Shown here: one piece after another, positions 2,690 through 20,865 of the stretch
How the letters are laid out: each line of letters opens with the position of its first letter
Numbering within the stretch: position 1 is the stretch's first letter
Assembly: GCA_022771695.1 (NCBI GenBank)
Contig: JALEKJ010000006.1
Coordinates: 1 to 64,000, forward strand
DNA from: Roseburia sp.
Lineage (GTDB): Bacteria; Bacillota; Clostridia; Lachnospirales; Lachnospiraceae
Direction of reading: 5' to 3'
Length of the DNA stretch: 64,000 nucleotides
Notes under the pieces: generated by a model
What the model saw: the letters and a program-made list of their open reading frames with translations, nothing else
What the model was told of the DNA's origin: nothing
Database searches by the model: none
Made by a program: the position numbers and the translations under genes

Positions 2690-2745
2690 CGTAGGTCCGT
2701 GTAACACACAGGTCGCGCGTAAGACCCCCCTCCCCCCATGAAAGA
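2690..2745 (+). other. Candidate cos site region
   Basis: Between the HNH gene and terS lies an unusual non-coding stretch with GGTCGCGCG followed by a pyrimidine-rich C6-T-C6 run (about 2724-2738). It is out of character with the AT-rich neighbourhood. In HNH-associated siphophages the cohesive-end site commonly lies in exactly this interval. The assignment comes from position and composition only. No cut sites can be defined here. Confidence 0.4.
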
Positions 2746-2756
2746 AAGGTGGTTAC

Positions 2757-4822: not shown

Positions 4823-4831
4823 GAGGAAGGC

Positions 4832-6007: not shown

Positions 6008-6689
6008 TGGAGTAATCGTTCCAAACGAGGATAAGTGGATATACGATTGGTTTGGAATGGAAGCAACGTGCCCGGATGATGTGAAAAAGGCGATAAAGAG
6101 CGCAGGGAAAGATGAAATCACATTTGTTATCAATTCTCCTGGAGGAGAAATCGGGGCAGGAAGTGAAATGTGGTACATGATTAATAGCTATGAGCAGAAG
6201 ACATATGCTGACATTGTAGGATATGCGTGCTCGGCGGCATCATATCTGGCGATGGGAGCTGATGTGGTACGAATGGCACCGACAGCACTTATGATGATTC
6301 ACTTGGTATCAGGAGATGCAAGTGGAAACTGTAATGCGATGGAGAAAGAAGCCAGCACATTACGAGTAGCGGATAAGGCAATCAGTAATGCATATAAGCT
6401 GAAAACTGGAAAGAGTAATGAAGAACTGCTTGCATTAATGGAGCAGGAGACATGGATGGATGCAGAAAAGGCAAAAGAATTAGGATTCATAGATTCTATT
6501 ATCGGAGCTGAAAATGAAGCGAAAGCAATGCCTATTTATAATGCATTCGGAAATATTTTGAGTGAAGAAGTGAAAGAAAAAGTTAGAAACATGGTAAAGC
6601 ATACTGATACCGGAGATTCCGGAAATCAGGATTTTTTATTACAAACCAAATTAAATCTTTTAAAACTTGGAGGTATGAGAAATGTTTAA
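5988..6689 (+). CDS. Prohead protease, ClpP/S49-like
   Basis: This 233-residue ClpP-type maturation protease starts at ATG 5988 behind GAGGAAGG, giving MKQVKISGVI. A GTG 12 bp upstream is possible but less likely. Key elements are the NSPGGEIGAGSEM oxyanion/strand segment, the nucleophile Ser in YACSAASYLAMGAD, the catalytic His in MMIHLVSGDA, and an acidic region near WMDAEKAKELGFIDSI. It probably removes scaffold or delta domain segments from the capsid protein. It overlaps both portal (20 bp) and major capsid (8 bp), indicating translational coupling. Confidence 0.93.
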   Translation: MKQVKISGVIVPNEDKWIYDWFGMEATCPDDVKKAIKSAGKDEITFVINSPGGEIGAGSEMWYMINSYEQKTYADIVGYACSAASYLAMGADVVRMAPTALMMIHLVSGDASGNCNAMEKEASTLRVADKAISNAYKLKTGKSNEELLALMEQETWMDAEKAKELGFIDSIIGAENEAKAMPIYNAFGNILSEEVKEKVRNMVKHTDTGDSGNQDFLLQTKLNLLKLGGMRNV

Positions 6690-7917: not shown

Positions 7918-7937
7918 TAAGCAAGATAAAATGAAAC

Positions 7938-7966
7938 GGCGAGCGTGATAGGCGCTCGCCATTTTT
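7938..7966 (+). terminator. Terminator/attenuator after the capsid gene
   Basis: GGCGAGCG (7938-7945) pairs perfectly with CGCTCGCC (7953-7960) across a 7-nt loop and is followed by ATTTTTG. It probably lets part of transcription stop after the capsid gene, lowering expression of the connector genes. Confidence 0.8.
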
Positions 7967-7979
7967 GTGAGGTAATACG

Positions 7980-8312
7980 ATGAGCGATGCAACTTTGAGT
8001 ATGTGGGAAAAGGTGAAACAGTCATTACATATCTCGCATAATAAACTGGATGAAGAAATAAAAAGAAAAGTGGAAATCTGCAAGCTTGACATGAAGCGCG
8101 TTGGAATCTCTACAGATTCAGAGGACGAACTGATATACATTTTATGTGAGTTATACGTAAAATGGCATTTAAACTTTAATGGCATGGGAGAAACTTTCAG
8201 AATGAATTATGAGCAAATGCGTGATGCAGTGAGTCTTGCGGACCAGTATCGGATGAAAGAAGGAAGTTGCACCGGTGCAACCGGAGGTGAAGCAAATGAA
8301 ACCTCTGAATGA
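7980..8312 (+). CDS. Head-tail connector protein (gp6-like)
   Basis: This 110-residue mostly helical protein starts at ATG 7980 behind GTGAGG. The helix-rich N-terminus (MWEKVKQSLHISHNKLDEEI) and place directly after the major capsid gene match gp6-like adaptor proteins that dock on the portal. It ends with a Gly/Thr/Glu-rich tail that overlaps the next gene by 17 bp. The assignment relies on position and fold-type composition more than on unique motifs. Confidence 0.72.
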   Translation: MSDATLSMWEKVKQSLHISHNKLDEEIKRKVEICKLDMKRVGISTDSEDELIYILCELYVKWHLNFNGMGETFRMNYEQMRDAVSLADQYRMKEGSCTGATGGEANETSE

Positions 8313-8634
8313 AGTAATTATTCTTGTGACAGAAGGTCCGGGAGAACGTAATGAAAATGGATTCCGTGAAAGCGTGATTTTGAAGCAAAGCGAAGTATTT
8401 GCTGCAATGGAATCGGTCAAGAGAAGTGAGTACTACGAGGCACTTCGTGCAGGAGATTATGTAAGTGCGACATTCACAATGAATAAAGACGATTATGAGG
8501 AAGGAATTGTCACGAACGATGACGGGAAATACAAGCCGAATAAGGTATTTTATGAGGATGTCGAATATGTAATACAGAGGACGTACAGGAAGGATAGCCA
8601 GTATTTAGAACTAATAGTAAAAGAGGTAGAGTGA
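8296..8634 (+). CDS. Head closure / head-tail joining protein
   Basis: This 112-residue beta-rich protein begins at ATG 8296, immediately downstream of GGAGGTGA (8283-8290). An in-frame codon 21 bp earlier lacks a comparable site. The pattern (short strands, RNENGFRESV near the start, VEYVIQRTYRKDSQYLELIVKEVE at the end) fits SPP1 gp16-like head closure proteins. It overlaps the preceding and following genes, as in other connector operons. It would cap the connector and hold packaged DNA. Confidence 0.68.
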   Translation: MKPLNEVIILVTEGPGERNENGFRESVILKQSEVFAAMESVKRSEYYEALRAGDYVSATFTMNKDDYEEGIVTNDDGKYKPNKVFYEDVEYVIQRTYRKDSQYLELIVKEVE

Positions 8635-9098
8635 TGGCATCATTTGATTTGGAATTTCCTGAGGATTTTATGAGTGACCTGCTAGAATGCGATTGTGATG
8701 AGCTTTGTACCGAGATGCTGAAAGAAGCATCTCCGATTTATGTAGAAAGCATGAAGAAATCAATGGAACAGGTAATTGATCATGAAGGAGATTCGGAGAT
8801 GGTACAATCTGTGAAAGCATCAAAACCAAAGCGTAGCAGAACAGATGCGTACATTGTAAACGTAGGCCCATCAGGATATTCAAAAGAAAAGAAGTACCAT
8901 GGAACAGACGGAACCGGTAAGAAAACATCAAGACAGTATCCGGTTTCAAATGCATTAAAAGCTGTTTGGAAAGAATATGGAATACCGGGTAGACAACCTG
9001 CGCAACCGTTTCTGGCAAATGCTAAAAATAATGCGGAAGAGCGGACAATGTCGAAAATGCAGGAAGTTTATAACAAGAAGGTGGGAGCAAAAGGATGA
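8634..9098 (+). CDS. HK97 gp10-family tail-completion protein
   Basis: This 154-residue protein starts at ATG 8634, which shares a base with the previous TGA. The pattern of an N-terminal acidic helix (CDELCTEMLKEASPIYVESM), a basic strand region (KPKRSRTDAYIVNVGPSGYS) and the near-C-terminal motif GIPGRQPAQPFLANA is characteristic of gp10-family proteins, which link connector and tail. The following gene overlaps by 4 bp (ATGA). Confidence 0.82.
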   Translation: MASFDLEFPEDFMSDLLECDCDELCTEMLKEASPIYVESMKKSMEQVIDHEGDSEMVQSVKASKPKRSRTDAYIVNVGPSGYSKEKKYHGTDGTGKKTSRQYPVSNALKAVWKEYGIPGRQPAQPFLANAKNNAEERTMSKMQEVYNKKVGAKG

Positions 9099-9442
9099 AT
9101 CTGAACGTGAAGATACAGGATATTGAAAAAAAAGTAAATATTCCAATAGAAGAGGATGAGTATCAGGGGAAGAAAAGCACCTACATGGTATTTTCATATG
9201 ATGATGAGAGACCGATTTTAAATGCAGACAATGAGCCATATGCAGATATGGCAGACATTACGTTTCAGCTTATTATGCCGAAAAACGCAGACTATATGAA
9301 TCTGAAACATCAGATAAGAGATGAACTTGAAAACAGTGGTTTTTCAGTAACAGCTATACGAACGTTGCTTGGAAGTGCCATGAATGGAACTGACAAGATA
9401 AGACGTATCATTTTTGAAACAAATTACACAGAAGAAAGATAG
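9095..9442 (+). CDS. Tail terminator/completion-like protein
   Basis: This 115-residue alpha/beta protein, translationally coupled to the gp10 homologue by ATGA, lies just before the tail tube gene. That is where the tail terminator or completion protein is encoded in HK97-like phages. Features include MVFSYDDERPILNADNEPYAD, then a DITFQLIMP strand and a basic helix. The sequence motifs are weak, so the function is inferred from order and size. Confidence 0.62.
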   Translation: MNLNVKIQDIEKKVNIPIEEDEYQGKKSTYMVFSYDDERPILNADNEPYADMADITFQLIMPKNADYMNLKHQIRDELENSGFSVTAIRTLLGSAMNGTDKIRRIIFETNYTEER

Positions 9443-9455
9443 GAGGAACTTTAAA

Positions 9456-10250
9456 ATGCCAAATTTCGGATTATCAAAACCGTACATCGCACAGTACGTA
9501 AAGGACGGTGTGTACAAGAGTGGATTTAAATGTGGTAAGGCTGTAAGTACAGCAGTAACGCCAAATTACAATGAAGCATCTTGCTATGGAGACAACATTC
9601 AGGCGGAAGACGTGAAGGAATTTAAAAATGCGTCAGTAGCACTTGGAGTAACAACACTTCCAGTTGTTGCAAAGAAAGTAGTATTCGGACATTCTGTGAG
9701 CGAAGCTCAGGAAGAGGTATCGAACTCGAATGACTCTGCAAATTATGTAGGGTATGGATTTATTACCGCAGAAATGAACGATGGTGTGAAGACATATGGT
9801 GCATGTGTGCTATTGAAGGTTCTTTTCCAGGAGGGAGAAGATTCTTATGAAACGAAGGGCGATTCTATCACTTTCAAGACACCGACACTTTCCGGAACTG
9901 CAACGACATATGAGAATGGCGATTGGAGAAAGAAAAAGACATTTAGTACGGAGAAAGAAGCGGAAGCATATATTGAGGGTATTCTTGGAATCACAGAGCA
10001 GTGCGAAGAGCCGGTATTCAGCGTAGATGCAGGTACATACGCAGAAGCACAGACAGTGACGATTGCTACAACGACAAAGGGAGCATCCATTTATTATACA
10101 ACAGATGGTTTGACACCTACGGCAGAAACTGGAACAGAGTATACAGATCCGGTAGAAATCAGCAAGAGCACATTGCTTAAGGCGATTGCAGTAAAAGCCG
10201 GGGCAAATAGCTCAGAGGTTGCGATGGCTGAGTACATCATTACTGCATAA
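9456..10250 (+). CDS. Major tail tube protein with C-terminal Ig-like domain
   Basis: This 264-residue tail tube protein of the phi13/TP901 type starts at ATG 9456 behind AGGAGG (9441-9446). Residues 1-180 form the tube domain (PNFGLSKPYIAQYV at the start, GYGFITAEMNDGVKTYGACVLLKV in the middle). Residues about 185-264 form a separate beta-sandwich of the chitobiase C-terminal/Ig-like type (YTTDGLTPT, then STLLKAIAVKAG). Such domains decorate tails and are thought to bind carbohydrate weakly. The next features are a terminator and the tail chaperones, as expected. Confidence 0.86.
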   Translation: MPNFGLSKPYIAQYVKDGVYKSGFKCGKAVSTAVTPNYNEASCYGDNIQAEDVKEFKNASVALGVTTLPVVAKKVVFGHSVSEAQEEVSNSNDSANYVGYGFITAEMNDGVKTYGACVLLKVLFQEGEDSYETKGDSITFKTPTLSGTATTYENGDWRKKKTFSTEKEAEAYIEGILGITEQCEEPVFSVDAGTYAEAQTVTIATTTKGASIYYTTDGLTPTAETGTEYTDPVEISKSTLLKAIAVKAGANSSEVAMAEYIITA

Positions 10251-10264
10251 TATGAGAATGGATA

Positions 10265-10292
10265 GGGCTGGGGAAAACCAGCCCTTTTCTTT
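10265..10292 (+). terminator. Terminator/attenuator after the tail tube gene
   Basis: GGGCTGG (10265-10271) pairs with CCAGCCC (10278-10284) around a short loop and is followed by TTTTCTTT. It lies between a highly expressed structural gene and the low-level tail assembly chaperones, suggesting a role in expression stepping. Confidence 0.78.
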
Positions 10293-10307
10293 AAATGGAG
10301 GAGAAGA

Positions 10308-10700
10308 ATGGAACTTTCAAGAATAGAAATCGGTGGAGAATCATATCCGCTAAAGTGCGATAACATCGTGCTGATGGAAATACAGGAGAAATACGGTACG
10401 GTAAGAGAATTTGAGAAGGCGCTTGTGGGGTTGGAAGAAAAGAGGGATGAGAACGGGGATTTAATTCTAAATGAAGATGGAATGCCTGTTTATATAAAAA
10501 AAGAGCCTTCCATAAAAGCAATCAACTTTGCTTTGCCGCTTATGATTAACGAGGGATTGGAGATAGAAGCAGAGAAGAAAAAAGAAGCGTTTGAACCGGT
10601 AAAGGAGAAGACATTACTTAGAAAAATAGACCAGAACTATTTTGAATTGAGCAAGTTGCTTCATCAGGAATTTAGCAGGTGCTTTGTAACAAAAAAATAA
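10308..10700 (+). CDS. Tail assembly chaperone (gpG-like)
   Basis: This 130-residue protein lies between tail tube and tape measure and starts at ATG 10308 behind GGAGGAG. It begins with beta-type strands (ELSRIEIGGESYPLKCDNI) and ends in a basic helix. Position and the downstream frameshift cassette identify it as the G component of a lambda-like G/GT chaperone pair that coats the tape measure during tail assembly. Its last sense codons form the slippery run described separately. Confidence 0.85.
   Translation: MELSRIEIGGESYPLKCDNIVLMEIQEKYGTVREFEKALVGLEEKRDENGDLILNEDGMPVYIKKEPSIKAINFALPLMINEGLEIEAEKKKEAFEPVKEKTLLRKIDQNYFELSKLLHQEFSRCFVTKK
10691..10697 (+). promoter_or_regulatory. Programmed -1 frameshift slippery site (A AAA AAA)
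   Basis: In the zero frame the last codons of the upstream gene read ACA AAA AAA TAA. The heptamer A AAA AAA therefore sits exactly on codon boundaries for simultaneous slippage. A -1 shift bypasses the TAA and continues with ATA AAA GCC in the frame of the next open segment, whose open frame overlaps this point without a well-placed start of its own. This is the expected arrangement for siphophage tail chaperones. Confidence 0.88.
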
Positions 10701-10930
10701 AAGCCCAAGTGAATCAGATGTATCGGGAGCCTGTACCAATAGATTTTACTTGGGTAATTTTCATGGGAATAAACCGTCTGGGATTTACGATGCAGCAGGT
10801 GGAGAAAATGTATTTTGGAGAATGGCAGGATTTCTTCGAGGTTTATAAGAAAGTGTACAATTTTGAGACTTCAAAGCAATTGTATTGTGAGGAAGAGGAA
10901 GAAAAAATTGCATCGATAAATGATTTGTAG
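10697..10930 (+). CDS. Tail assembly chaperone T extension (made by -1 frameshift, gpGT)
   Basis: This 77-codon extension is read in the -1 frame relative to the upstream gene and would yield a G-T fusion of about 207 residues. It includes FTWVIFMGINRLGFTMQQVE and a FFEVYKKV helix, then an acidic tail. The frame is open upstream of the slip site but has no good initiation signal, supporting expression only as a fusion. The T domain in lambda-like phages contacts the tail tube protein. The tape measure gene begins 9 bp downstream. Confidence 0.83.
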   Translation: MKAQVNQMYREPVPIDFTWVIFMGINRLGFTMQQVEKMYFGEWQDFFEVYKKVYNFETSKQLYCEEEEEKIASINDL

Positions 10931-10939
10931 GAGAAAAAT

Positions 10940-13900
10940 ATGGCGTCAAAAGGAACAATCGGTGGCCGCATTGTATTAGAGGGCGAAGCGGAATATAGGG
11001 CGGCATTAAAAAATATAAATCAAGAACAGAAAGAATTACGGTCCGAGATGAAACTCTGTACGAGTGAATTTGAAGGAAACCAGAATTCGATAGAAGCGCT
11101 TGGCAAAAAGTACAGCGTCTTAAGCATTCAGGTGGAAAACCAGACAAGAAAAGTAGAGTTGTATTCAGAGCAGCTTGAAAAAGCGGAAAAGGCACAGGAC
11201 AAAGCAGCTGATAAAGTAACGGAGTTAAAAAAAGAGCTGGAAGATGCTGAGAAGGTGCTTGCGGAAATGTCGGAATCCTCTGATACGTCAGCGGATGCGT
11301 TGGAAAATCAGGGGAAGGCAGTAGAAGAGTTACGGAAAAAGCTTTCAAATGCCGAGCAGTCATATGATAGTGCTGGTCGGAAGGTAAGCGAGTATCAGAC
11401 CAATACAAACAATGCACAGGCTACATTAAATAAAATGCAGCGTGAGCTTGACGAAACAAAGTCATATATGGATGAAGCCGCAAAATCCACAGATGGATGC
11501 GCGACTTCGATTGATAAATTTGGGAAGAAAACAAAAGAATCCGGTGAGGAAGCAAAAAAGATGGGAGAAAACAGCGAGGAGGCTGTTAATGCACTTGCGA
11601 GCGTGCTAGCTGCAAGCGGAATCGCTGCCGGATTCGATAAAATAAAAGATGCGATAATTGAGTGCTCCGAGAGTGCGAAGGAGTTTGAGTACTCGACGGC
11701 AAAGCTATCGACTATCGCAGACACATCAAATGTATCATTTGGAAAATTAAGGGAAGAAATATTAAAGACTGCAACTGAGATGGGAACCGCAGCTTCTGAT
11801 ATCGCAGAAGTATCATACAATGCGATTTCTGCCGGCGTTGACACGGCAAAATCTGTAAGCATTGCGGCTGATGCATCTATGCTTGCAACCGCAGGATTTA
11901 CAAATAGCAGTGCTGCATTGTCTGTATTAACAACGGCAATGAACAGCTACAACTTAGCTGCGGATGAGTCGAGAAATATATCAGATTCATTAATTCAAAC
12001 ACAGAATCTCGGAGTGCTTACAATTGACCAGTTAAGTTCTTCAGTTGGTAAAGCAATCAGTACAGCATCCGCCTTTAATGTTGATTTGTACAATTTGGAA
12101 TCAGGATACATCAGTTTAACAAAATCAGGAATTGCAGCCGCAGAAGCAACGACCTATATGTCAAGCATGTTCGCGGAACTTGGAGATTCCGGAAGCGTTG
12201 TGGCAAAAACGTTGAAAGAGAAAACTGGAAAGAGCTTTGGAGAACTCATGAAGTCCGGATATTCTCTTGGCGATGTATTGCAGATTCTTTATAAGAGCGT
12301 AAACGGAAATGCAGAGGCTCTTATGAACCTGTGGGGAAGTCAGGAAGCAGGAAAGGCATCAAATGCGATTGTGAATCAGGGGTTGGAGACATTTAATAAA
12401 AACCTCAATTCCGTGAAAAACTCCGCAGGAGCAACAGAATCTGCATTTGAGAAAATGGCAGATACAACAAAGATAGCAGAAAATAAGATGGATACTTCTA
12501 TTGAGAATTTGAAAATAGCAATAGGAGAACGTTTAAATCCTGCAATGGTAGAGTTATATGAAACAGGAGCAGACATTACAAATTGGGCGGCAGAGTTCGT
12601 GGAGGAGAATCCGGAAGTTGTATATGCGATAACTGGACTTACAGTTGGATTTGGAGCACTTACGGTTGGAATTGGAGCAATGACGGTAGCATCAACCGTA
12701 GGCACAAAAGCAATAGAAGCTATGAATCTCGCTATCGCATCGAACCCGATTGGACTGGCAGTAACAGCGGTTGTGGCGCTTACTGCGGCGCTTGGAACAA
12801 TGGCGCTTGCGCAAAAGGCAGCAACAGAATCCTATATGGATGATGTGAAAGCACATAAAGAATCTCTTGAGACAATTAATGCAGAAATAAACGCCAGGAA
12901 GACATCTTCCGCTGATACGCAGGCGCAGATTGTTGCGATAGATAGTCTGACATCGTCATTAATGGCATTAAATGAAAAGGAACATTTAAATGCAGACGAA
13001 AAGACTAAGCTGAAAAATATCGTAGATCAGCTGAATACTGCAATGCCGGAGTTGAATCTTAGCGTGGACGAGCAGACCGGACTCCTTAATATGAATAACA
13101 GTGAGTTGGAAAAGCTCATAGAGAATCAGAAAACGTATCTTCTCGTACAGGCTGCGCAGGAAGATTTGAATGAAATCGCAAGTGAACAGTATGAAATACT
13201 GAAAGAGCAGGCAGAAGCATCAGAAGGTCTTGCAGAAGCACAAGAACATCTGGCCGAACTTGAATCAAAACGAATGGAAGTCATTGAGGAAGGTGGTACA
13301 GCTCTCGATAATTACAATACGCAGCTTGTGATAGCGCAGGATGAGGTCAATGCCTATAACGAAATAATTGAAGAGCAAAATGCAAAACTTGCAGAACTAG
13401 ATGAAGAATACAGCTCTGTAACTGACATAATCGGTGGATACACATCAGCGGTCGGCGATGCAAAAAATGCACAGGATGATATGAGTACGTCTACATATTA
13501 TTACGGGACACAGGTTTATGAGGTGTCCGATTCTGTGAGACAGAGCATTGATACATTAACGGCATCTTATGAAGAAGCAAAGGTGAAAGCAGAGGAATCT
13601 CTGCAAAGTCAGGTTGGGCTGTTTGATGAATTGAGCACAAAGTCTGATTTGAGTGTTCAGCAGATGGCGGCAAATTTACAGAGCCAGACGGATGCTTATA
13701 ATCAGTATTCAACGGACCTTATCGCAGCATCGCAGATCATGAAGGATGATACGACTGGGAACTTTTCCGTAATGGTGCAGTCTATTATGGATATGGGAAT
13801 GTCCGGCGCAGGATATCTGCATGAACTGGTAACAGCGGCAGAAGATTCTACAGAGTCATTTGATGAAGTAATGACGTCATTTGCAGAGATGGAAAATGCA

Positions 13901-14287
13901 AGAACGACACTCGCATCGACGATGGCAGACATAAACACAGGATATTCAGATGGCATAGAAGAACTGATAACAACGACAGAAACAGGAATGACAAGCATGG
14001 CGGATGCGGTGACAAAGGGAATGCCGCAGGTAACACTTGCTACAACGAATCTTGCAAACACAATTCCGCAAACGGCGAATACAGTGCTTGGAGTGTCAGA
14101 CGGAAGTTCTTCGGTCATGAATTCCACAGGAAGAGCAGTATCTCAAGGAATTGCAGATGGTATCACGAGTAACCAGGGAGCAATTCAAACAGCGATGCAG
14201 AACGCAATAAATAATGCAACTGCAAATGCGAATTTCAGTGGAGTCACGGCACGTATCAATCAGATAATGGGAGACATGTTACAATGA
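10940..14287 (+). CDS. Tail tape measure protein
   Basis: This 1,115-residue protein is the longest of the tail module. Residues about 20-230 are coiled coil (heptad-rich KKELEDAEKVLAEMSE-like stretches). Residues about 230-540 resemble the TP901-type tape measure core. Hydrophobic Gly/Ala-rich segments at about 565-625 (VYAITGLTVGFGALTVGIGA and following) are probable membrane-active helices. Further coiled coil follows to about 1,000. At about 1.5 Å per residue the length implies a tail on the order of 160-170 nm. It sets tail length and probably assists DNA entry. It overlaps the next gene by 4 bp. Confidence 0.93.
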   Translation: MASKGTIGGRIVLEGEAEYRAALKNINQEQKELRSEMKLCTSEFEGNQNSIEALGKKYSVLSIQVENQTRKVELYSEQLEKAEKAQDKAADKVTELKKELEDAEKVLAEMSESSDTSADALENQGKAVEELRKKLSNAEQSYDSAGRKVSEYQTNTNNAQATLNKMQRELDETKSYMDEAAKSTDGCATSIDKFGKKTKESGEEAKKMGENSEEAVNALASVLAASGIAAGFDKIKDAIIECSESAKEFEYSTAKLSTIADTSNVSFGKLREEILKTATEMGTAASDIAEVSYNAISAGVDTAKSVSIAADASMLATAGFTNSSAALSVLTTAMNSYNLAADESRNISDSLIQTQNLGVLTIDQLSSSVGKAISTASAFNVDLYNLESGYISLTKSGIAAAEATTYMSSMFAELGDSGSVVAKTLKEKTGKSFGELMKSGYSLGDVLQILYKSVNGNAEALMNLWGSQEAGKASNAIVNQGLETFNKNLNSVKNSAGATESAFEKMADTTKIAENKMDTSIENLKIAIGERLNPAMVELYETGADITNWAAEFVEENPEVVYAITGLTVGFGALTVGIGAMTVASTVGTKAIEAMNLAIASNPIGLAVTAVVALTAALGTMALAQKAATESYMDDVKAHKESLETINAEINARKTSSADTQAQIVAIDSLTSSLMALNEKEHLNADEKTKLKNIVDQLNTAMPELNLSVDEQTGLLNMNNSELEKLIENQKTYLLVQAAQEDLNEIASEQYEILKEQAEASEGLAEAQEHLAELESKRMEVIEEGGTALDNYNTQLVIAQDEVNAYNEIIEEQNAKLAELDEEYSSVTDIIGGYTSAVGDAKNAQDDMSTSTYYYGTQVYEVSDSVRQSIDTLTASYEEAKVKAEESLQSQVGLFDELSTKSDLSVQQMAANLQSQTDAYNQYSTDLIAASQIMKDDTTGNFSVMVQSIMDMGMSGAGYLHELVTAAEDSTESFDEVMTSFAEMENARTTLASTMADINTGYSDGIEELITTTETGMTSMADAVTKGMPQVTLATTNLANTIPQTANTVLGVSDGSSSVMNSTGRAVSQGIADGITSNQGAIQTAMQNAINNATANANFSGVTARINQIMGDMLQ

Positions 14288-15102
14288 GAAAATTTAAGTT
14301 AATTAATTCCAGAGGAGATACATGGGATTTGAACGAGAGAAACTCGTTTTTTAATGATCCGAAAGGATTGGGGCAGGAACATAAAAACGAGTATGAGCAG
14401 ATAGGGACTCGATTTGTTAAGTTGAACGATGGATTGAAACAAAAAAGTATCTATGGAAATATTAATTTTTCCGGGTACAAAGAATATCATGACTTCTCTT
14501 TATTTAGCCAGCACACACCACTTACGCTTGAGTATGAATCATATGAGAAGATTTATATAGACGTAAGCATTGATAAATTGGAGAAAACGGAAATGTCTAC
14601 AGGATGGATTGTGTGTCCTGTAAAAATCTCCGGTCTTACTACATTTTATAAATTGGCTCGTTCTGAAAATTCCGGGGATGGGAATACCGGGAAAATTTAC
14701 AGGTATTCTTATCCATACAAATATGCAGATTATTCAACAGGATCTGTAGAAATCGAATCAGACAGTGCGATTGTAAGCCCTGCAAGGCTGACGATTATAG
14801 GACCGTGCACAAATCCATCATGGACGCATTATCTGAATGGTGTTGTAAAAACATCCGGAAAAGTAAATTGTGTCATACAAGATGGCCACAGGCTTGTTGT
14901 TGACGATATGAAGACACCATTTGAAATAGCGGAATATGATTCTACAGGAACGTTTGTGCAGAGCCTGTATCAAGATAGCGATTTCTCAACAGAACGATTT
15001 GTGTTTTTGGGATTCGGGAACAACAAAATTTCATTTTCGCATGAAGGCGATACGGTATTATCTCTTATCGCGGAAGGGAGAATTGAATATGAGACTTTAT
15101 AA
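14284..15102 (+). CDS. Distal tail protein (Dit-like)
   Basis: This 272-residue protein follows the tape measure gene with an ATGA overlap. The N-terminus MRKFKLINSRGDTWDLN and the NPKGLGQEHKNEY-like loop are typical of siphophage Dit/tail-family proteins, with a C-terminal galectin-like part (KVNCVIQDGHRLVVDD, LGFGNNKISFS). Dit forms the hub at the tail tip where the tail-associated protein and receptor-binding proteins attach. It shares 14 bp with the next gene. Confidence 0.82.
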   Translation: MRKFKLINSRGDTWDLNERNSFFNDPKGLGQEHKNEYEQIGTRFVKLNDGLKQKSIYGNINFSGYKEYHDFSLFSQHTPLTLEYESYEKIYIDVSIDKLEKTEMSTGWIVCPVKISGLTTFYKLARSENSGDGNTGKIYRYSYPYKYADYSTGSVEIESDSAIVSPARLTIIGPCTNPSWTHYLNGVVKTSGKVNCVIQDGHRLVVDDMKTPFEIAEYDSTGTFVQSLYQDSDFSTERFVFLGFGNNKISFSHEGDTVLSLIAEGRIEYETL

Positions 15103-16156
15103 TGTTGAGATTTTTGACAGCAATTTTAATTTCAAAAGCTCTCATCCGATAAGCGATAGGGGAAAGTACGAGTACGACTACATAAGCATTTCTGTAAATA
15201 AAGTGAGCGTTCCGGATATAGAGGTTGAAAAAGGCGACTATATTATCATGACAGCTATGAATCAGGATGAGGAGCAGATAATTGGAATTGTTGTTTCCTT
15301 TACAGATAAGGGAATGGAATATGAGATAGAATATAAGACATTTCTATCAATTACGGACGTTGATGTGCATTATGATAAATCGCTGTTATCTACCATAACA
15401 CTTGAGCAATGGCTTGCAGACATCATCAGCGATACATATGTGAACAATGCAGACAATATGCAGAATATCTACGGATTATCTGTCACATATGAAGCAGCAA
15501 CATCGAATGCTCTTCTCGATTTGGAAGAAAACATCGGAAACCTTTACGAGATACTGATTAAGGCACTGGTGAATTACAATGTTGTGGTCGACTTTTCAAT
15601 TGATATATGTAAGAGAAAAATCAATGCACATGTCTATTCAAATAAGAAAAAGGAACTGTATATCGAAGCTGACATTATGAATGTGGTTGAAAAGAAATTC
15701 AACTTCAAAAAAAGCAATTCATCATATAACAAGATGACGGTTTACAACTCACTTGACGAGACGGAACAACAGACATTTTATTTAGATACATCAGGGAATA
15801 TCAGCACAACTCCTGATGCTTCAAAAAGAATCGCGCCCGTAGTATTTACAAATATATTCATAAAGCACGAGGATGATGATAAAAAAAGCTTTTATGAAGA
15901 AGCTTATGAGAAAGCATTTAATAAGCTGTCGGCAGAAAAATATGATAATCTCATAGAAATTTCAGTGTTAGAAGATGATGAGCTAGTAAATCCACATGAC
16001 CTCAATGTAGGACAAAACACAGTGATCATTCATGACAATATGAAGTACAGAACGATTTTGACCGGTATGGAAATTGAAAATGGAATCGCAAAGCTCATGT
16101 TCGGAACCGTTAGATTGGAGTTGACAAAAAAGATTAAGAGGAGGATGTACCTATGA
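15089..16156 (+). CDS. Tail-associated/baseplate hub protein (Gp37/Tal-like)
   Basis: This 355-residue protein starts at ATG 15089 (MRLYNVEIFDSNFNFK) behind GGGAG. The frame is open further upstream but lacks a better start. The N-terminal hub-like region with DYIIMTAMNQDEEQIIGIVVS, the later NVVEKKFNFKKSNSSYNKM segment and the SVLEDDELVNPHDLNVGQ motif resemble Gp37-like tail proteins of siphophages. No peptidase or lysozyme domain is visible. It probably forms the tail tip below Dit. Confidence 0.75.
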   Translation: MRLYNVEIFDSNFNFKSSHPISDRGKYEYDYISISVNKVSVPDIEVEKGDYIIMTAMNQDEEQIIGIVVSFTDKGMEYEIEYKTFLSITDVDVHYDKSLLSTITLEQWLADIISDTYVNNADNMQNIYGLSVTYEAATSNALLDLEENIGNLYEILIKALVNYNVVVDFSIDICKRKINAHVYSNKKKELYIEADIMNVVEKKFNFKKSNSSYNKMTVYNSLDETEQQTFYLDTSGNISTTPDASKRIAPVVFTNIFIKHEDDDKKSFYEEAYEKAFNKLSAEKYDNLIEISVLEDDELVNPHDLNVGQNTVIIHDNMKYRTILTGMEIENGIAKLMFGTVRLELTKKIKRRMYL

Positions 16157-17082
16157 GCATTTATGCAAAACGAATCGATGAGAGCATTATCACACCAAAG
16201 GATGACCGCATCTTATTTGATGCGATTTTTGATAATTACGGACTCATATACGGCGGAAGTGCCAAAATGAGCGCTGTAAATAAAATTAATGTTGGAGCTG
16301 CCAGAGGATTCATTAAGGGGACAGAAATCATCGTAGAGGAAGAAGATATCGCAGTAGAGCTTTCTGATAGTGGCACAAAGAGCGGAAGACTTAAAATCAT
16401 TGTTGATTATACAAACACCGAGAATCCGGTTGCATTCACATCAGAGGTTGCAACATCTCTTCCGGCATTAGAACAGGATGATTTAATTAATTACACAAAT
16501 GGAGTTTATGAAGTTGCGTATGCGACGTATACGGCGTCAGAGACAAGCATTTCAGATGTGAAGCTAGTAATGCCTACGCTTGAGACTGTAAAGGAGAAGC
16601 TTAAGAGGCTAAACACGGATTTAAGCACTAAAGCCAATGCTGCTGATTTAGCCGCAAAAGCTTCAGCAGCGGATTTGAATGCAGAGAAAAATACGCGAGC
16701 GTCCGTGGATGCAAGCTTGCAGAGCCAGATAAACGATACGAAATCAGTTGCTTCATTTGCATTTGGCACAATTATTTCAACTGTTGCCGAGTTTTCCGAT
16801 GGGTATCTGAACAAGAAAGATGGTGTTGTTTACTTCTCTTTTGAGTTCAAAATAATAAATATCACAAATGGCGTGACTACAAACATTGCATCGATTCCTT
16901 ATAAACCGTATGGAATTTGCCATTGCTCGGCAACATTATATAATGGCAATACGTCATTCCCTGTTTTCACAGCAATAAATGATGGAATTATACAGGTGCA
17001 TTTGCCGTCTGATTGCGTTTTGAGTTCAAACAAAGAAAATAACAAATTAAGATTCTCTGGAAGCTTCCCAGCTAAAAATTAA
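16153..17082 (+). CDS. Tail fibre / receptor-binding protein
   Basis: This 309-residue protein has an N-terminal attachment domain (MSIYAKRIDESIITPKDDR, about 1-135), a coiled-coil neck with alternating heptads (about 140-195, ADLAAKASAADLNAEKN) and a C-terminal beta-rich head (about 195-309, ending SGSFPAKN). The architecture is that of a short trimeric fibre. The stop codon lies within a 14-bp perfect palindrome shared with an antisense frame immediately downstream. The head is the likely receptor-binding, host-range-determining part. Confidence 0.78.
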   Translation: MSIYAKRIDESIITPKDDRILFDAIFDNYGLIYGGSAKMSAVNKINVGAARGFIKGTEIIVEEEDIAVELSDSGTKSGRLKIIVDYTNTENPVAFTSEVATSLPALEQDDLINYTNGVYEVAYATYTASETSISDVKLVMPTLETVKEKLKRLNTDLSTKANAADLAAKASAADLNAEKNTRASVDASLQSQINDTKSVASFAFGTIISTVAEFSDGYLNKKDGVVYFSFEFKIINITNGVTTNIASIPYKPYGICHCSATLYNGNTSFPVFTAINDGIIQVHLPSDCVLSSNKENNKLRFSGSFPAKN

Positions 17083-17093
17083 ATAGCTATTTA
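17080..17093. repeat. 14-bp perfect palindrome shared by two convergent stop codons
   Basis: TAAATAGCTATTTA reads identically on both strands. Its first TAA is the stop of the forward tail fibre and, on the opposite strand, its first TAA is the stop of the antisense tail-fibre-like frame. The site could act as a recombination or joining point, a bidirectional stop, or arise by chance. Confidence 0.7.
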
Positions 17094-17366
17094 TGATGCA
17101 TACCCAAACATTATCCAAGCAACGTTGCAACTATCCCCTTGAGAAAATGTACCAGCAGGGGCATCAATGCGGATTCTAAACCCAGACGCTGTTTTATTTT
17201 GAATTGACACGTTGGCACCTGTACTTGTTGCAATAGATTGCAAAACAGGGAGAACAATATATTTTGCATCGTTTAAAGGAGTAGAGAATGTAATGTCTCT
17301 TACAAGTGCTCCACTGCTTGCATAACCATTAACAGTAGAGGCATCTGAATAACTGATGATACGCAT
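17091..17366 (-). CDS. Antisense tail-fibre-like C-terminal fragment
   Basis: This minus-strand frame of 91 codons (from ATG 17366) stays open 12 codons further upstream (AFPFILNTDLGG) before a stop, so it looks like the C-terminal piece of a longer protein rather than a complete gene. Composition is that of a secreted beta-rich phage fibre head (SDASTVNGYASSG, KTASGFRIRIDAPAG, then GDSCNVAWIMFGYAS). The whole late operon runs the other way. The AGGTGG is only one base from the ATG, too close to be a good ribosome-binding site. It may be an alternative fibre end left by inversion or recombination. Confidence 0.5.
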   Translation of the reverse strand: MRIISYSDASTVNGYASSGALVRDITFSTPLNDAKYIVLPVLQSIATSTGANVSIQNKTASGFRIRIDAPAGTFSQGDSCNVAWIMFGYAS

Positions 17367-17447
17367 GCCACCTAAATCCGTGTTTAATATGAAAGGAAAA
17401 GCCTATGAGAATAAGAGGACCAACTTAATAAAGTATTAAGAGTTCAA

Positions 17448-17486
17448 GAGCCGAATGTGCGGAAAACTGCATGTCCGGTTCTTTTT
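17448..17486 (+). terminator. Strong hairpin with T-tract; group II intron domain V look-alike
   Basis: Fifteen paired positions (one A-C mismatch, a few G-T pairs) enclose an AAAA loop and are followed by TTTTT. It can therefore terminate transcription between the fibre region and the lysis genes. The 34-nt element (17448-17481) begins GAGCCG, contains GGAAAA at the tip and ends CCGGTTC, matching the length and most invariant positions of group II intron domain V. No intron-encoded reverse transcriptase is present in the window. Confidence 0.65.
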
Positions 17487-17522
17487 ATATAAAATCAGCC
17501 TGCAGGCAGAAAGGAAGGGACT

Positions 17523-17762
17523 ATGGAGACAGAGATTGTTGTGGCTCTGATTACTCTTGCCGGGAGCGCGCTTGGAACCTTTGCTGGAATTGTCACAAGC
17601 GCAAGGTTAATGACATACCGGATTGAGCAGTTGGAGAAAAAAGTTGACAAGCATAATACCGTCATTGAGCGAACCTTTAAATTAGAGGAAGCGCAAGCTG
17701 TTATGCAGGAACAAATCAAAGTAGCCAATCATAGAATTGAGGATTTGGAAAGAGAGGAATAG
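17523..17762 (+). CDS. XhlA-like membrane protein of the lysis cassette
   Basis: This 79-residue protein has one N-terminal hydrophobic segment (VVALITLAGSALGTFAGIV) followed by a coiled-coil tail (EQLEKKVDKHNTVIERTFKLEE, shown in part). The layout, a short membrane anchor plus a charged coiled coil upstream of holin and endolysin, is that of XhlA/BhlA-type lysis-associated proteins. The next gene starts 4 bp after its stop. It may modulate holin triggering. A tail-tip membrane anchor role is an alternative. Confidence 0.68.
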   Translation: METEIVVALITLAGSALGTFAGIVTSARLMTYRIEQLEKKVDKHNTVIERTFKLEEAQAVMQEQIKVANHRIEDLEREE

Positions 17763-17766
17763 AATT

Positions 17767-18030
17767 ATGGATTTAGGATTTTTAACAGATTACTATGTGC
17801 CAGTGGTAGTAGTTGCGTGCTTGATCGTCGGATACATCATCAAGACGTCATTGGATTTCATTCCAAATAAGTACATACCACTTATTCTTGCTGTTTTAGG
17901 TGCAGTAGTTGGTTGTGTGGCAAATTCATCCATCGACTTAAACACAATTGTATATGGGGCATTCAGCGGTCTTGCAAGTACAGGTTTGCACCAGGCATTT
18001 ACAAAAATTGTAGAAAGAGAGGACAATTAA
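17767..18030 (+). CDS. Phage holin
   Basis: This 87-residue membrane protein has two to three transmembrane segments (YYVPVVVVACLIVGYI, about 8-24; IPLILAVLGAVVGCVA, about 37-53; a weaker one at about 60-80) and a charged C-terminus (KIVEREDN). It lies directly before the endolysin with a 1-bp gap. Size, topology and position support a holin that permeabilises the membrane so the muramidase can reach the wall. ATG 17767 is chosen over an upstream in-frame codon because it follows AGAGAGG. Confidence 0.82.
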   Translation: MDLGFLTDYYVPVVVVACLIVGYIIKTSLDFIPNKYIPLILAVLGAVVGCVANSSIDLNTIVYGAFSGLASTGLHQAFTKIVEREDN

Positions 18031-18031
18031 T

Positions 18032-19012
18032 ATGAAGTACGGAATTGATGTTGCAAAATGGAATGGAGAAATTGACTGGGGAAAGGTCAAAGAAGATGGC
18101 ATTGTGTTTGCCATTTTAAAAGCCACAAAGAAAAATAATTCTGTAGAAGAGGCATTCGAACGGAATTATGCCGGTTGTATTGAAAATGGAATTGAGGTTG
18201 GTGCGTATCGTTATGTGTACGCGAAAACGATTGAGGGAGCAAAAAAAGAAGCGCAGGCGTTATGCGAAGTTCTTGCAGGAAAGAAAATCACATACAGGGT
18301 ATGGCTTGACATGGAAGATGATTCCATTAAGTATATCGGTGCGTCAACATTAACAAACATTATTAATGCAGAGGCAGAGATTTTACAAGCAGCAGGATTT
18401 GAGGTTGGAGTATACTGCAACTTGAATTGGTACAAGAATGTGCTTCAGTCGGAAAAGCTTAAGGAAAAATATCCATTCTGGATTGCAAGATATGGAACGA
18501 ATGATGGGGAGATGCAGGAAGAGTATAGTCCTGAAGCATTTGCGCATGCGTGGCAGTACACATCCAAGGGAAAGGTAAACGGAATCAGTGGAAACGTTGA
18601 CCTTGATGTGGTATTTTCTGAAATGTCGACAGAAACAGTAGAACCGGAACCACACAAATACAGTGTTGGCCAGACAGTAACTTACTCATCTTATTATTAT
18701 GCAGCAGGAGATGATATCTCAAAGGCTGTTATTTTAAGTAAGTACGGAAAGGGGAAAATCACAGGCATTACATCAGGCGCGAGAAATCCGTATCAGTTAG
18801 ACGGAAGAAACCGTTACCTGAATGATGGAGATATCAGAAGCATTGTCACATCGAAGGAATCAGAGTATGTGTATCATACAGTAAAGAGCGGACAGAATTT
18901 GACCGTAATTGCAAAAATGTATGGTACATCAATTAATCAGATTCTGAAACTTAATCCGAGCATTAAAAATAAGAACCTCATTAAAACAGGAGCAAAGATT
19001 AGAGTGAAATAG
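18032..19012 (+). CDS. Endolysin: GH25 muramidase with C-terminal LysM
   Basis: This 326-residue lysin has a GH25 (Chalaropsis-type) lysozyme domain at residues 1-195 (KYGIDVAKWNGEIDW with the conserved Asp at the start, VWLDMEDDS carrying the acidic catalytic residues, and SGNVDLDVVF at the end). A linker with an SH3-like segment at about 210-275 (NPYQLDGRNRYLNDGDIRSI) and one LysM repeat at about 284-326 (TVKSGQNLTVIAKMYG, INQILKLNP) follow. It cleaves the glycan backbone of peptidoglycan. LysM binds GlcNAc-containing glycan. There is no signal peptide, so release needs the holin. Confidence 0.95.
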   Translation: MKYGIDVAKWNGEIDWGKVKEDGIVFAILKATKKNNSVEEAFERNYAGCIENGIEVGAYRYVYAKTIEGAKKEAQALCEVLAGKKITYRVWLDMEDDSIKYIGASTLTNIINAEAEILQAAGFEVGVYCNLNWYKNVLQSEKLKEKYPFWIARYGTNDGEMQEEYSPEAFAHAWQYTSKGKVNGISGNVDLDVVFSEMSTETVEPEPHKYSVGQTVTYSSYYYAAGDDISKAVILSKYGKGKITGITSGARNPYQLDGRNRYLNDGDIRSIVTSKESEYVYHTVKSGQNLTVIAKMYGTSINQILKLNPSIKNKNLIKTGAKIRVK

Positions 19013-19017
19013 TATAG

Positions 19018-19050
19018 AAGCCGGCGGGAGAAATCCTGCCGGCTTTTTTT
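19018..19050 (+). terminator. Terminator after the endolysin
   Basis: AAGCCGGCGGG pairs with TCCTGCCGGCTT (arms at 19018-19028 and 19035-19045, one G-T pair) around a 6-nt loop and runs into seven T residues. It marks the end of the late operon and isolates the accessory cassette that follows. Confidence 0.88.
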
Positions 19051-19097
19051 GTATACGAAAATTAAATCAGTTATTAGTAAAAAAATCAAAAAAACGC

Positions 19098-19126
19098 TTG
19101 ACAATACTCCGCTAGAGGAGTAATAT
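19098..19126 (+). promoter_or_regulatory. Vegetative promoter with internal palindromic operator
   Basis: TTGACA (19098-19103) is separated by 17 bp from TAATAT (19121-19126), which precedes a second A/T-rich element. Between and overlapping them lies TACTCC-N6-GGAGTA (19105-19122), a spaced palindrome well placed for repressor binding. The promoter lies behind the endolysin terminator and in front of the three accessory genes, so these can be transcribed independently of the late operon, possibly from the lysogen. Confidence 0.7.
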
Positions 19127-19163
19127 ATAATCAGAAAGAGGAAATACGAAGGAGGAACACGAA

Positions 19164-19508
19164 ATGAAAAAATATAATTTATCAGAGATAATGAAAAGAG
19201 CATGGGAATTAAAAAAGCAGTTCGAAGTTCCTTTTAAGGAAGCATTAAAAAGATCATGGGAAATTGCAAAAGAAGCTGTTAAAAAAGCAGAGAAAAAAGT
19301 ATCTGAGATTCGTATCGAAAACTTATCAATTAAAGATTGGTTCTTGAACAAGAATTTCACACAGAACGAAAGATATGCCATTAAAATGGCAGAAGAAAAT
19401 AATGAAATTACAGCAGTAAAGCAGACAGAAAAAGCTTTATTGCTCAAAGCAAACAGCGAATATGGTATGTTGACATTCTGGGCACCAAAGTCTGTTTGCA
19501 TATATTAA
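19164..19508 (+). CDS. Accessory phage protein with repeated AWE-K helices (114 aa)
   Basis: This 114-residue basic protein contains two similar helices, LSEIMKRAWELKKQ and FKEALKRSWEIAKE, then a third charged segment and a globular end (LLKANSEYGMLTFWAPKS). Proteins with this LSEIMKRAWEL-type opening are common small genes on clostridial phages and plasmids, but I know of no established function. It has a strong ribosome-binding site (GGAGG) and is the first gene after the independent promoter, so it may be made during lysogeny. Confidence 0.65.
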   Translation: MKKYNLSEIMKRAWELKKQFEVPFKEALKRSWEIAKEAVKKAEKKVSEIRIENLSIKDWFLNKNFTQNERYAIKMAEENNEITAVKQTEKALLLKANSEYGMLTFWAPKSVCIY

Positions 19509-19521
19509 AGGAGGAAGAGAA

Positions 19522-19875
19522 ATGATTGGAACAAATGAATTAAGAATAGCAGTTGAGGTTTTGAAGTATTATAATGAGAACAGCAGATTGTTCGGATTTG
19601 ACAATGATGAGCTTGATGCATTGGCAAAGACAGAGAAGATTATGAAAAGAGAATTGAACTGGCAGGATGACCAGGAAGCACACTCGGAAGTAACGATTGA
19701 GATGGAACTTGGAAGAGAAATATCCCTAGCAGAATGGGCAAGAATACACAAAATTGATGAATCAACTGCAAGACAGAAGGCACGCAGAGGAGGATTTAAG
19801 ACAGCTCGTAAGGTAGGGCGCGATTGGCTGATTATGGAAACAGAAGAGAATCCGGATGGGAGACGGAAAAAATGA
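19522..19875 (+). CDS. Helix-turn-helix DNA-binding protein, excisionase-like
   Basis: This 117-residue protein has a helical N-terminal half and a C-terminal MerR/Xis-type winged helix-turn-helix: ISLAEWARIHKIDESTARQKARR then GFKTARKVGRDWLI (given in two parts). The pattern of helix, turn, RQ-K-ARRG recognition helix and W-x-I wing is that of small phage excisionases and regulators. It lies 450 bp from the attachment end and could be a recombination directionality factor or the repressor of the upstream operator. A GGAGG site precedes ATG 19522, and it overlaps the next gene by 4 bp. Confidence 0.72.
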   Translation: MIGTNELRIAVEVLKYYNENSRLFGFDNDELDALAKTEKIMKRELNWQDDQEAHSEVTIEMELGREISLAEWARIHKIDESTARQKARRGGFKTARKVGRDWLIMETEENPDGRRKK

Positions 19876-20321
19876 AAGCTGCCGACATGGTAGGATTTGA
19901 GCATGGAAGACTGAAGGTATTACGGAGAGCCGGGACAAAGAATGGGAAGGCTCTATGGGAGTGCCAGTGTAAGTGTGGAAATAAGTGCCAATACACAACG
20001 ACGCAGCTTAGAGCATTTGGTGTAGAATCCTGCGGATGTTTGCAAAAAGAGAAGGCAAGAAAGCTTGCACCGATTGAAGGTAGAAAGAGAACACTAAAAG
20101 ATGGAACATGTTTGAATGCGTTTAATAGAGAAATTGGGAAAAATAACACTTCAGGAATAAAAGGTGTGTCATATTATAAAAAAACAGGGAAATGGCGTGC
20201 ACAGATACGTGTGCAGGGAAAGAACTACCATCTAGGTTTATATGATAAGATAGAAGATGCAGAAACAGCGAGAAAGATTGCAGAAGAAAATGTGAAAAAG
20301 TGGATAAACGAGAGAAAATAA
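19872..20321 (+). CDS. AP2-domain DNA-binding protein
   Basis: This 149-residue protein starts at ATG 19872 (MKAADMVGFEHGRLKVL), coupled by ATGA to the upstream gene. The N-terminal part has a Cys-rich zinc-type segment (WECQCKCGNKCQYT, ESCGCLQKEKARK). The C-terminal part is an AP2/ERF-type domain (SGIKGVSYYKKTGKWRAQIR, then NYHLGLYDKIEDAETARKIAEE). Phage AP2 proteins of this form often resemble HNH homing nucleases, but here no HNH motif is present, so it is probably a DNA-binding protein only. It is the last gene of the prophage, and its stop lies a few bases from the host junction. Confidence 0.85.
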   Translation: MKAADMVGFEHGRLKVLRRAGTKNGKALWECQCKCGNKCQYTTTQLRAFGVESCGCLQKEKARKLAPIEGRKRTLKDGTCLNAFNREIGKNNTSGIKGVSYYKKTGKWRAQIRVQGKNYHLGLYDKIEDAETARKIAEENVKKWINERK

Positions 20322-20350
20322 GAATTATCTGTTATTACAATACGGAGGTC
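20322..20350. other. Right prophage-host junction (attR region)
   Basis: The phage AP2 gene stops at 20,321, and from about 20,326 the sequence reads as host CotJC (YLLLQYGGPDGE), matching residues about 25-36 of CotJC proteins. The crossover core should lie within these bases or just beyond, since cores usually duplicate a few host bases. The other copy is outside the window, so the exact core cannot be defined. Confidence 0.7.
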
Positions 20351-20865
20351 CGGACGGGGAAGCCGCTGCGTCGTTTCGTTATCTGTCACAGCGTTATGCC
20401 ATGCCGTACCGTAAGGTGGCAGGACTTTTGACAGATATCGGAACGGAAGAACTTGCGCACCTTGAAATGGTGGGTGCAATCGTAAGACAGCTCACAAGGG
20501 GACTTAGCGCTGAGCAGCTTGAGGAAGCCGGATTTGCCCCATATTATGTGGATCACACAGCAGGCATCTGGCCGCAGGCGGCGGGTGGAATTCCGTTTAA
20601 TGCCTGTGAATTTCAATCCAAAGGAGATGCGATCACGGATCTCTTTGAGGATATGGCAGCAGAGCAGAAGGCCAGAACCACCTATGATAATATTCTGCGC
20701 CTGGTAAAAGATCCTGAGGTTTGTGACCCGATTCGTTTCTTGCGACAGCGCGAAATTGTGCATTTCCAGCGCTTTGGTGAAGGCCTGCGCATGGTACAGG
20801 ATGAACTTGACAGTAATAACTTTTATATGTGCAATCCGGATTTTGATCCGGGGTGCCCCAAATAG
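20326..20865 (+). pseudogene. cotJC: cotJC, 3' part: spore-associated manganese catalase split by prophage
   Basis: The frame from 20,326 to the TAG at 20,863-20,865 gives about 179 residues of the CotJC/manganese catalase family. It includes GEAAASFRYLSQRY (first metal-binding helix), TEELAHLEMV (E-x-x-H), EDMAAEQKARTTYD and REIVHFQRF (second E-x-x-H). Full-length CotJC is about 190-200 residues and begins with a short MW-YEKKL-YP segment, which is absent here. Only about the first 25 codons are missing and no start or ribosome-binding site replaces them. ATG 20401 could initiate but would lose a metal-ligand helix. The 5' end presumably lies left of the prophage, so excision would restore the gene. 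Confidence 0.85.

Follow-up and report, generated by a model that had tools for sequence, protein, structure and literature searches.

The window, the whole 64,000-nucleotide stretch of Roseburia sp. DNA analysed here, corresponds to contig C38 of a 69-contig genome and has its position 1 at the first base of that contig, so that the left end of the prophage it contains is invisible in it. An earlier note, made from the window, had claimed that this prophage splits the spore manganese-catalase gene cotJC near its 5' end, and had looked to the left end for the N-terminal piece of cotJC, after cotJA and cotJB and with a matching core. We found that left end on another contig of the same genome, C9 (C9:56000-79339, loci L087 and L088), with the piece and the core in place, so it does not lie in an unrelated locus. 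The features on the two contigs are the following.

Window 1..20337, plus strand: right part of the prophage, with the late genes (phage genes fill 1-20321)
Window 706..1737, plus strand: tyrosine-type recombinase (PF00589 E 7.5e-29; phrog_1 E 1.3e-49), among the late genes and without visible att sites
Window 3137..4822, plus strand: terminase large subunit (phrog_9 E 2.7e-157)
Window 4832..6007, plus strand: portal protein (phrog_12 E 5.4e-58)
Window 6682..7917, plus strand: major capsid protein (phrog_10 E 2.4e-44)
Window 10940..14287, plus strand: tail tape-measure protein (phrog_1533 E 1.4e-80)
Window 17737..18030, plus strand: holin (phrog_1129 E 1.7e-24)
Window 18032..19012, plus strand: endolysin (phrog_291 E 2.1e-55)
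Window 19522..19875, plus strand: small protein, weakly excisionase-like (phrog_66, excisionase and transcriptional regulator, E 5.9e-4)
Window 19824..20321, plus strand: last phage ORF before attR, with an AP2-like domain (PF00847 E 1.8e-7, 31.8 bits, below the Pfam cut-off of 33.3); the frame opens at TTG 19824 and the true start may be further in
Window 20325..20348, plus strand: attR, with the phage arm from 20325 and the core CAATACGGAGG at 20338-20348, matching the attL core
Window 20338..20865, plus strand: cotJC 3' piece, residues 28-202 (Mn catalase of the spore coat; PF05067 E 5.9e-37, joined ORF), beginning with the att core
L087:7847-8062 (C9): cotJA
L087:8050-8325 (C9): cotJB
L087:8325-8416 (C9): cotJC 5' piece, codons 1-27 plus the core, followed by phage DNA to the contig end
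L087:8406-8416 = C9:64405-64415: attL core, a copy of the 11-bp core CAATACGGAGG
L087:8453-9937 (C9), minus strand: large serine recombinase, 494 aa (PF00239, Resolvase, and PF07508, Recombinase, both above cut-offs; phrog_95 integrase E 4.1e-97)
L087:14053-14214 (C9): candidate directionality factor (RDF) of this phage, 53 aa, a member of the profile family described below, in the recombinase locus

Both pieces of cotJC are located, and the element sits within the coding region of the gene, in the cotJABC operon. The same 11-bp core lies at each junction, flanked by complementary phage arms on C9 and in the window, which bears out the proposed split. In the window, the last phage ORF stops at 20321 and the cotJC frame is open up to its stop codon at 20863-20865. 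The earlier note had cotJC resuming at about residue 25; the frame is indeed open to the natural stop, but the true break is at residue 28, the host/phage border being the core at 20338-20348 (codons Q28-Y29-G30-G31) and the in-frame codons upstream of it being phage DNA. Joining the pieces at the core gives a 202-codon cotJC without a stop and with its frame exactly restored, and the joined protein is 90% identical to the one-piece relatives L007 and L008 (88-89% for the 3' piece). A Mn_catalase profile search of the whole genome returned four matches. The 3' piece scored E 5.9e-37; the 5' piece, matched over the first 31 residues of the enzyme, gave E 0.0013, its shortness keeping it under the curated cut-off; the other two were weak (E 0.16 and 0.21) and fall within long other frames. 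No second complete cotJC was found in this search, in agreement with the earlier proposal.

We take the Mn ligands of CotJC to be E35, E65, H68, E136 and H169, numbered by analogy with the Lactobacillus plantarum enzyme; with this numbering, all predicted ligands fall in the 3' piece, in line with the earlier claim that the metal-ligand helices are retained. Against L007 and L008, pN is 0.069-0.077 in each cotJC piece, and dN/dS of this genome is uninformative because synonymous sites are near saturation. The sequence CATAGAATA precedes cotJA, and the genes directly after cotJC (window 21016-23252) are presumably feoA/feoB-like. The host genome has spoIVA. A sigK-like gene lies in one piece at window 35126-35737 (TIGR02846 E 1.1e-86, 290.5 bits against a cut-off of 298.65); its match begins at model position 24, so it is probably without a pro-sequence. 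The cotJ genes are described as mother-cell genes (PMC3789822, PMC3416734).

The prophage measures at least 35.3 kb, made up of 14,935 bp on C9 (from the attL core to the contig end) and 20,337 bp in the window; the gap between the two contigs, whose ends share no overlap, comes on top of this. Packaging, capsid, tail and lysis genes are all present. The serine recombinase gene adjoins attL, its end being 36 bp from the attL core, and the deduced attP, TTATCTGTTATTACAATAC-GGAGGACT-GTATTGTAATAACAGATAA, consists of an 8-bp centre between two 19-bp arms that form a perfect inverted repeat. In the PDB, this recombinase matches TP901-1 integrase best (E 5.5e-8). A protein search of a phage collection gave only distant relatives, the top-ranked being 37% identical and 399/399 below 60%, and the exact phage arm had no match in IMG/VR, so no free copies of the same phage were found there. 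We considered the tyrosine recombinase at 706-1737 as the integrase and rejected it, since it lies 18.6 kb from attR whereas the serine recombinase lies 36 bp from the attL core; the distance from it to attL includes the gap between the contigs. A ParE-type toxin (PF05016 E 8.2e-10) and a probable antitoxin adjoin the phage recombinase (L087:10157-10653, C9), and this pair was set aside as directionality factor on its toxin-antitoxin match.

The same break, which we call site A, recurs in other genomes. Among the first 80 cotJC relatives, 74 give an unbroken match across the compared stretch, four (L020, L041, L067 and L074) are broken at the same codons as this cotJC, and two (L014 and L078) are broken near the 3' end. 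In those four, a related serine recombinase ends just 5' of the cotJC 3' piece, with 41-45% identity to this one in L020, L041 and L067 and 32% over a fragment in L074. Of 75 viral contigs that carry a related recombinase, 8 also show a piece of cotJC, and 34 have too short a flank to tell. At a threshold of E up to 1e-60, a related recombinase was present in 50 of 397 sampled genomes of the same family, own included; all 58 listed loci were fetched, and a cotJC piece lies at 34 of them (own included), nearly always broken at residues 25-33. Forty recombinase loci have a site-A-type piece within 900 bp of the recombinase 3' end, and there the recombinase faces the 5' piece in 16, the 3' piece in 18 and is ambiguous in 6, which means that the elements sit in both orientations. 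Left out of this count were L089, L090, L094, L145, L167 and L210, where the cotJC piece is opposite to the recombinase picked by the script; in the first four, the mismatch is likely due to a second recombinase at an apparent site B, a break further into the gene. On the viral contigs L089, L090, L094, L140 and L145, the piece of cotJC that follows the site-A recombinase runs to residues ~62-79, and their phages may sit in cotJC genes that are also split at site B.

With the whole CotJC as query, 243 of the 397 same-family genomes gave matches. The best 150 matches were shown for these 243, and 103 of the 104 genomes beyond them were rerun in full, G341 (one match, E 3.8e-94) being left out. 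The rerun found complementary pieces in 71 genomes, whole copies only in 12, and lone or unclear pieces in 20. At least 71 of the 243 cotJC-bearing genomes, or about 3 in 10, are split besides this one, a lower bound because genomes among the best 150 matches can also carry a split copy (e.g. G033, G046, G253 and G321). Both pieces lie on one contig in 44 of the 71, and a whole copy is also present in 10 of them, including G149, G309 and G369. The junctions fall at four sites, at residues ~28-33 (A), 59-67 (B), 133-139 (C) and 166-178 (D). Per genome, 25 cases were assigned by script to A, 32 to B, 13 to C and 8 to D, and four were left unplaced, which by eye belong to A (G269, G369), B (G122) and C (G264); two sites are used within one cotJC in 11 genomes. 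Joining at a shared core closes the frame in 26 of 33 junctions (from 32 single-contig loci, a few on a core of 5-6 bp), and in the remaining 7 the script found no usable core. In L078 (site D) and in the g361 genomes (site B), the serine recombinases are only ~22-26% identical to this one. One contig, G255:C130, has two cotJC pieces in site-A register 117.6 kb apart, too far for one ordinary phage.

As a control we took ribosome recycling factor: of 140 genomes searched, 137 gave a match and all 137 have the gene in one piece, and an additional weak, incomplete match lies in a different frame of 741 aa; a hand count in the same 140 genomes found cotJC split in 24 of the 86 that bear it, own included. 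The YabG Pfam model matched 0 of the 140 genomes and was useless as a spore-gene control, leaving one vegetative gene as the control of the survey. In a class-level sample, cotJC was present in 157 of 245 genomes, and a hand count among the matches listed gave 53 of 157 (own included) with only a partial best match, most of them with breaks at the boundaries already described; stop codons occur in several of these pieces, about three start at a contig end and the second pieces are mostly beyond the matches listed, and the class-wide partial matches are only suggestive of the same split.

The four sites lie 0-3 residues from a predicted Mn ligand, and 91 of 20,000 random placements did as well, in a test that used the ligand numbering given above and site limits fixed after the junctions were known. 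The DNA at the sites is conserved above average: across 74 whole genes, four randomly drawn windows reached the same conservation in 77 of 20,000 draws. Read most simply, the phages aim at the codons least free to change.

Several of the cotJC elements are ~3 kb long, apparently too small for phages, and keep the recombinase and a small candidate RDF. That of G149 (3.0 kb) carries the recombinase, a candidate RDF with a good promoter match and, by eye, a small Cro-like protein; that of G321 (~3.4 kb) has the recombinase, the candidate RDF and few other ORFs, one of 221 aa; that of G284 (3.7 kb) has the recombinase, the candidate RDF and a 339-aa ORF. The full rerun with the CotJC query found no whole cotJC in G284. 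A whole cotJC is also present in G149, G309 and G321, so that in three of the four best minimal elements the split gene is not the sole source of CotJC. The recombinase is truncated in the split genes of G310 and G155, and there is none in G350, which means that cotJC there is either dead or freed by excision in trans. The G350 element carries an ORF with a Spo0A C-terminal domain; a Spo0A DNA-binding domain protein (L222:887-1222, PF08769 E 4.7e-31) is also the only sizeable ORF of a 1.6-kb cotJC insert, and L108 and L110-L112 have short proteins with PF08769 (E 5.7e-15, fragment). An ORF found beside the recombinase in small cotJC elements (L226:681-2336, also near L216 and L219) encodes a membrane protein, which we take to be a SulP-type transporter. 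The phage SP-beta, when reduced to sprA and sprB, is reported to excise still in sporulation (PMC4191935).

At 31 of 137 recombinase loci, a set that includes duplicates, the gene piece beside the recombinase belongs to a gene other than cotJC. These loci, among them L105, L172, L174, L180 and L187, give this family of serine recombinases a second target, which looks like sleC, the gene for a spore cortex-lytic enzyme; the 5' piece of the sleC-like gene has no significant Pfam match, and its name is assigned by inference. Both sleC and the CotJC-like genes cotCB and cotD are placed in the sigma-K regulon of Clostridioides difficile (PMC3789822).

A profile seeded by two small ORFs of minimal elements (from G149 and G284) gave 76 ORF hits, duplicates included, in the recombinase loci, of which 62 are non-identical and have enough upstream DNA; the proteins have ~50 residues. 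They have no Pfam match and only a weak PHROGs match, to phrog_26314 (unknown function). The bipartite pattern AC-N16/17-CATA occurs upstream of the candidate RDF in 27 of 51 non-redundant regions and is absent from the other 24; among 575 regions upstream of other ORFs in these loci, 14 contain it (Fisher 2.8e-23). The test took its start codons from a script and drew on many loci without a visible cotJC. For the stricter AC-N16/17-CATANNNT, the counts are 20 of 51 and 7 of 575, and shuffled sequences give an expectation of 0.44. By group, the pattern is present in 6/9 loci at site A of cotJC, 6/11 at sleC, 10/16 with too little flank, 2/9 classed as other, 0/2 of attP type, 2/3 of the later elements and 1/1 for this phage. 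Here the candidate RDF is preceded by AAC-N16-CATAGGATA (AAC at L087:14001-14003, CATAGGATA at 14020-14028), a match to the short pattern; the phage's recombinase gene has no CATANNNT within the 140 bp upstream of it. Sigma-K promoters of C. difficile are described as having AC at -35, and the -10 elements of sigma-E and sigma-K as alike (PMC3789822), and the -35 region of the candidate RDF promoter also resembles the SpoIIID box, given for C. difficile as KRTAACARK (PMC5025042). From these sequence patterns, the ~50-residue protein would be the RDF of this recombinase family, and its mother-cell-type promoter would be in use. The candidate is recognised by its sequence family and by the company it keeps, and the phage also encodes a rival for the role, the weakly excisionase-like protein at 19522-19875.

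Outside the family, three species that share a genus (G593, G529 and G633) have a cotJC 3' piece that starts at residue 59 (site B), with a recombinase 92-95% identical among them 4-10 kb upstream and a stretch of ~5 kb around it that is 93-94% identical. Over the 137 codons of the 3' piece, G593 and G633 differ by dN 0.0 and dS 0.16, and the other two pairs by dN 0.017 and dS 0.42-0.46. By this comparison, strong purifying selection acts on the 3' piece in the genus: if the gene were dead, its protein sequence would not stay so nearly unchanged. The same element inserting independently again would be a loophole in the test. G529 has pieces 1-33, 30-62 and 59-197 in order on its one contig and is the only one of the three species with all pieces located; the 5' piece of G593 was not found within 60 kb upstream, and the contig of G633 ends before it. 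A further member of the genus, G421, has three cotJC pieces in order on one contig and is too distant for the selection test.

We give a probability of about 0.8 to the reading that the prophage-split cotJC is rejoined by developmental excision in sporulating cells. A temperate prophage of the tailed-phage type would use the large serine recombinase that it encodes to integrate into cotJC at codons 28-31; the gene would be off in vegetative cells, so the lysogen would pay little. In sporulation, the prophage would exit the mother-cell chromosome as a circle, at little cost to the phage since the mother cell dies; cotJC would be rebuilt, its product would enter the coat, and the forespore would retain the prophage. 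The site, the recombinase and the exact rejoining can be read directly from the assembled contigs, and excision in the mother cell is what we infer. Developmental control is supported by the candidate RDF with its mother-cell-type promoter, by the ~3 kb elements and by the purifying selection on a split copy at site B in the one genus just described.

A misassembly or a chimeric contig is hardly credible as the source of the split: the halves do lie on different contigs whose ends do not overlap, but both contigs carry the exact 11-bp core with reciprocal phage arms, a single contig holds the two pieces in 44 genomes, and genomes assembled as a single contig are split too, among them G271 (site A, 35.7 kb), G282, G319 and G391, as well as G529 and G421 with two insertions each. 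It is also very improbable that cotJC is a fossil here, dead and with both pieces decaying. Such a fate would suit a gene whose start codon and ribosome-binding site are separated from residues 28-202, 175 of its 202 codons; yet both pieces are open and in frame, with the pN values given above, although synonymous sites are saturated and a recent insertion would look alike.

Plain lysogeny in a dispensable gene, where the phage uses conserved DNA whose loss is harmless, excises only on phage induction and leaves spores without CotJC, seems to us unlikely. The insertion sites may simply track conserved DNA, given that so few of the random draws were as conserved (77/20,000), and some elements have a truncated recombinase or none. 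In C. difficile, insertions in cotCB and cotD are reported to have lowered catalase activity without a significant coat defect (PMC11222575). Left unexplained, however, would be the mother-cell-type promoter of the candidate RDF, the ~3 kb elements that keep a recombinase and a small gene, the double insertions with all pieces kept, and the dN of 0 at a dS of 0.16 in a split 3' piece.

Beyond this genome, developmental excision may be one case of something wider, and on balance we favour, with some reserve, the view that cotJC and sleC are general loci of programmed rearrangement in Clostridia. Phages and stripped-down elements of several recombinase families would enter repeatedly at four fixed sites beside the metal-ligand codons of cotJC, sometimes two per gene, and leave by excision in the mother cell, which at site A and in sleC at least would depend on a shared small directionality protein with a promoter tuned to mother-cell sigma factors. 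If so, spore-coat assembly in perhaps 3 in 10 of these bacteria would need at least one timed DNA excision, and many gut spore-formers should routinely rearrange their mother-cell genome. Excision from spore genes has so far been described case by case, in the papers on Bacillus, C. difficile and C. botulinum, and becomes countable in one gene and one family, with interrupters that range from whole phages to ~3 kb elements and with a likely switch protein and its promoter named. Automated annotation may be listing many coat genes as absent or defective, and the locus is a natural setting in which to test why mother-cell genes are chosen by phages. We found no description of an element inside cotJC or sleC in the literature searched, a search whose scope excluded preprints and most subscription journals.

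The earlier note had likened the geometry to skin in sigK and SP-beta in spsM, and the likeness holds in anatomy: a terminal large serine recombinase, a short core with inverted phage arms and exact in-frame rejoining. In these respects the prophage resembles the known sporulation-gene intervening elements, which comprise skin, SP-beta/spsM, vfbin, gin and yin. Like SP-beta in spsM of B. subtilis, as described, this element is an apparently whole temperate phage inside a mother-cell spore gene, with a large serine recombinase and a small partner; in SP-beta, the 58-aa SprB carries the timing via a promoter of sigma-E/sigma-K type (PMC4191935). Unlike SP-beta, the target here is the Mn catalase gene cotJC and the hosts are Clostridia, and the likening to SprA/SprB is by arrangement. 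The att sites lie inside the gene as they do for skin in sigK of C. difficile (recombinase CD1231, RDF CD1234), where the serine recombinase CD1231 is reported not to be restricted to sporulation and the RDF CD1234 to be under sigma-E and SpoIIID (PMC5025042). In both systems, by these accounts (PMC4191935, PMC5025042), the small partner and not the recombinase carries the timing, and here the -10 pattern likewise stands before the candidate RDF and is absent from the 140 bp ahead of the recombinase. Skin rebuilds a sigma factor needed for sporulation (PMC5025042), whereas the product here is a coat enzyme and the sigK-like gene is in one piece.

The phage phi027 of C. difficile is similar in having its attR just before a CotJC-like gene, cotG; by its description, it is adjacent to cotG with a possible effect on expression, and no interruption or rebuilding is part of that description (PMC11222575, PMC12122855). 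Published regulon lists place cotG among the sigma-G (forespore) genes (PMC3789822). The non-phage or phage-like elements gin, in gerE of B. cereus (PMC5595907), and yin, in yabG of C. botulinum (PMC10747680), also interrupt a late spore gene, and both are described as leaving exactly. The ~3-kb cotJC elements resemble gin in being without visible phage structural genes and differ from it in size and equipment, gin having 28.6 kb and three recombinases (PMC5595907) and the small cotJC elements ~3 kb and one. Finally, yin was reported as unique (PMC10747680), whereas the elements in cotJC are widespread.
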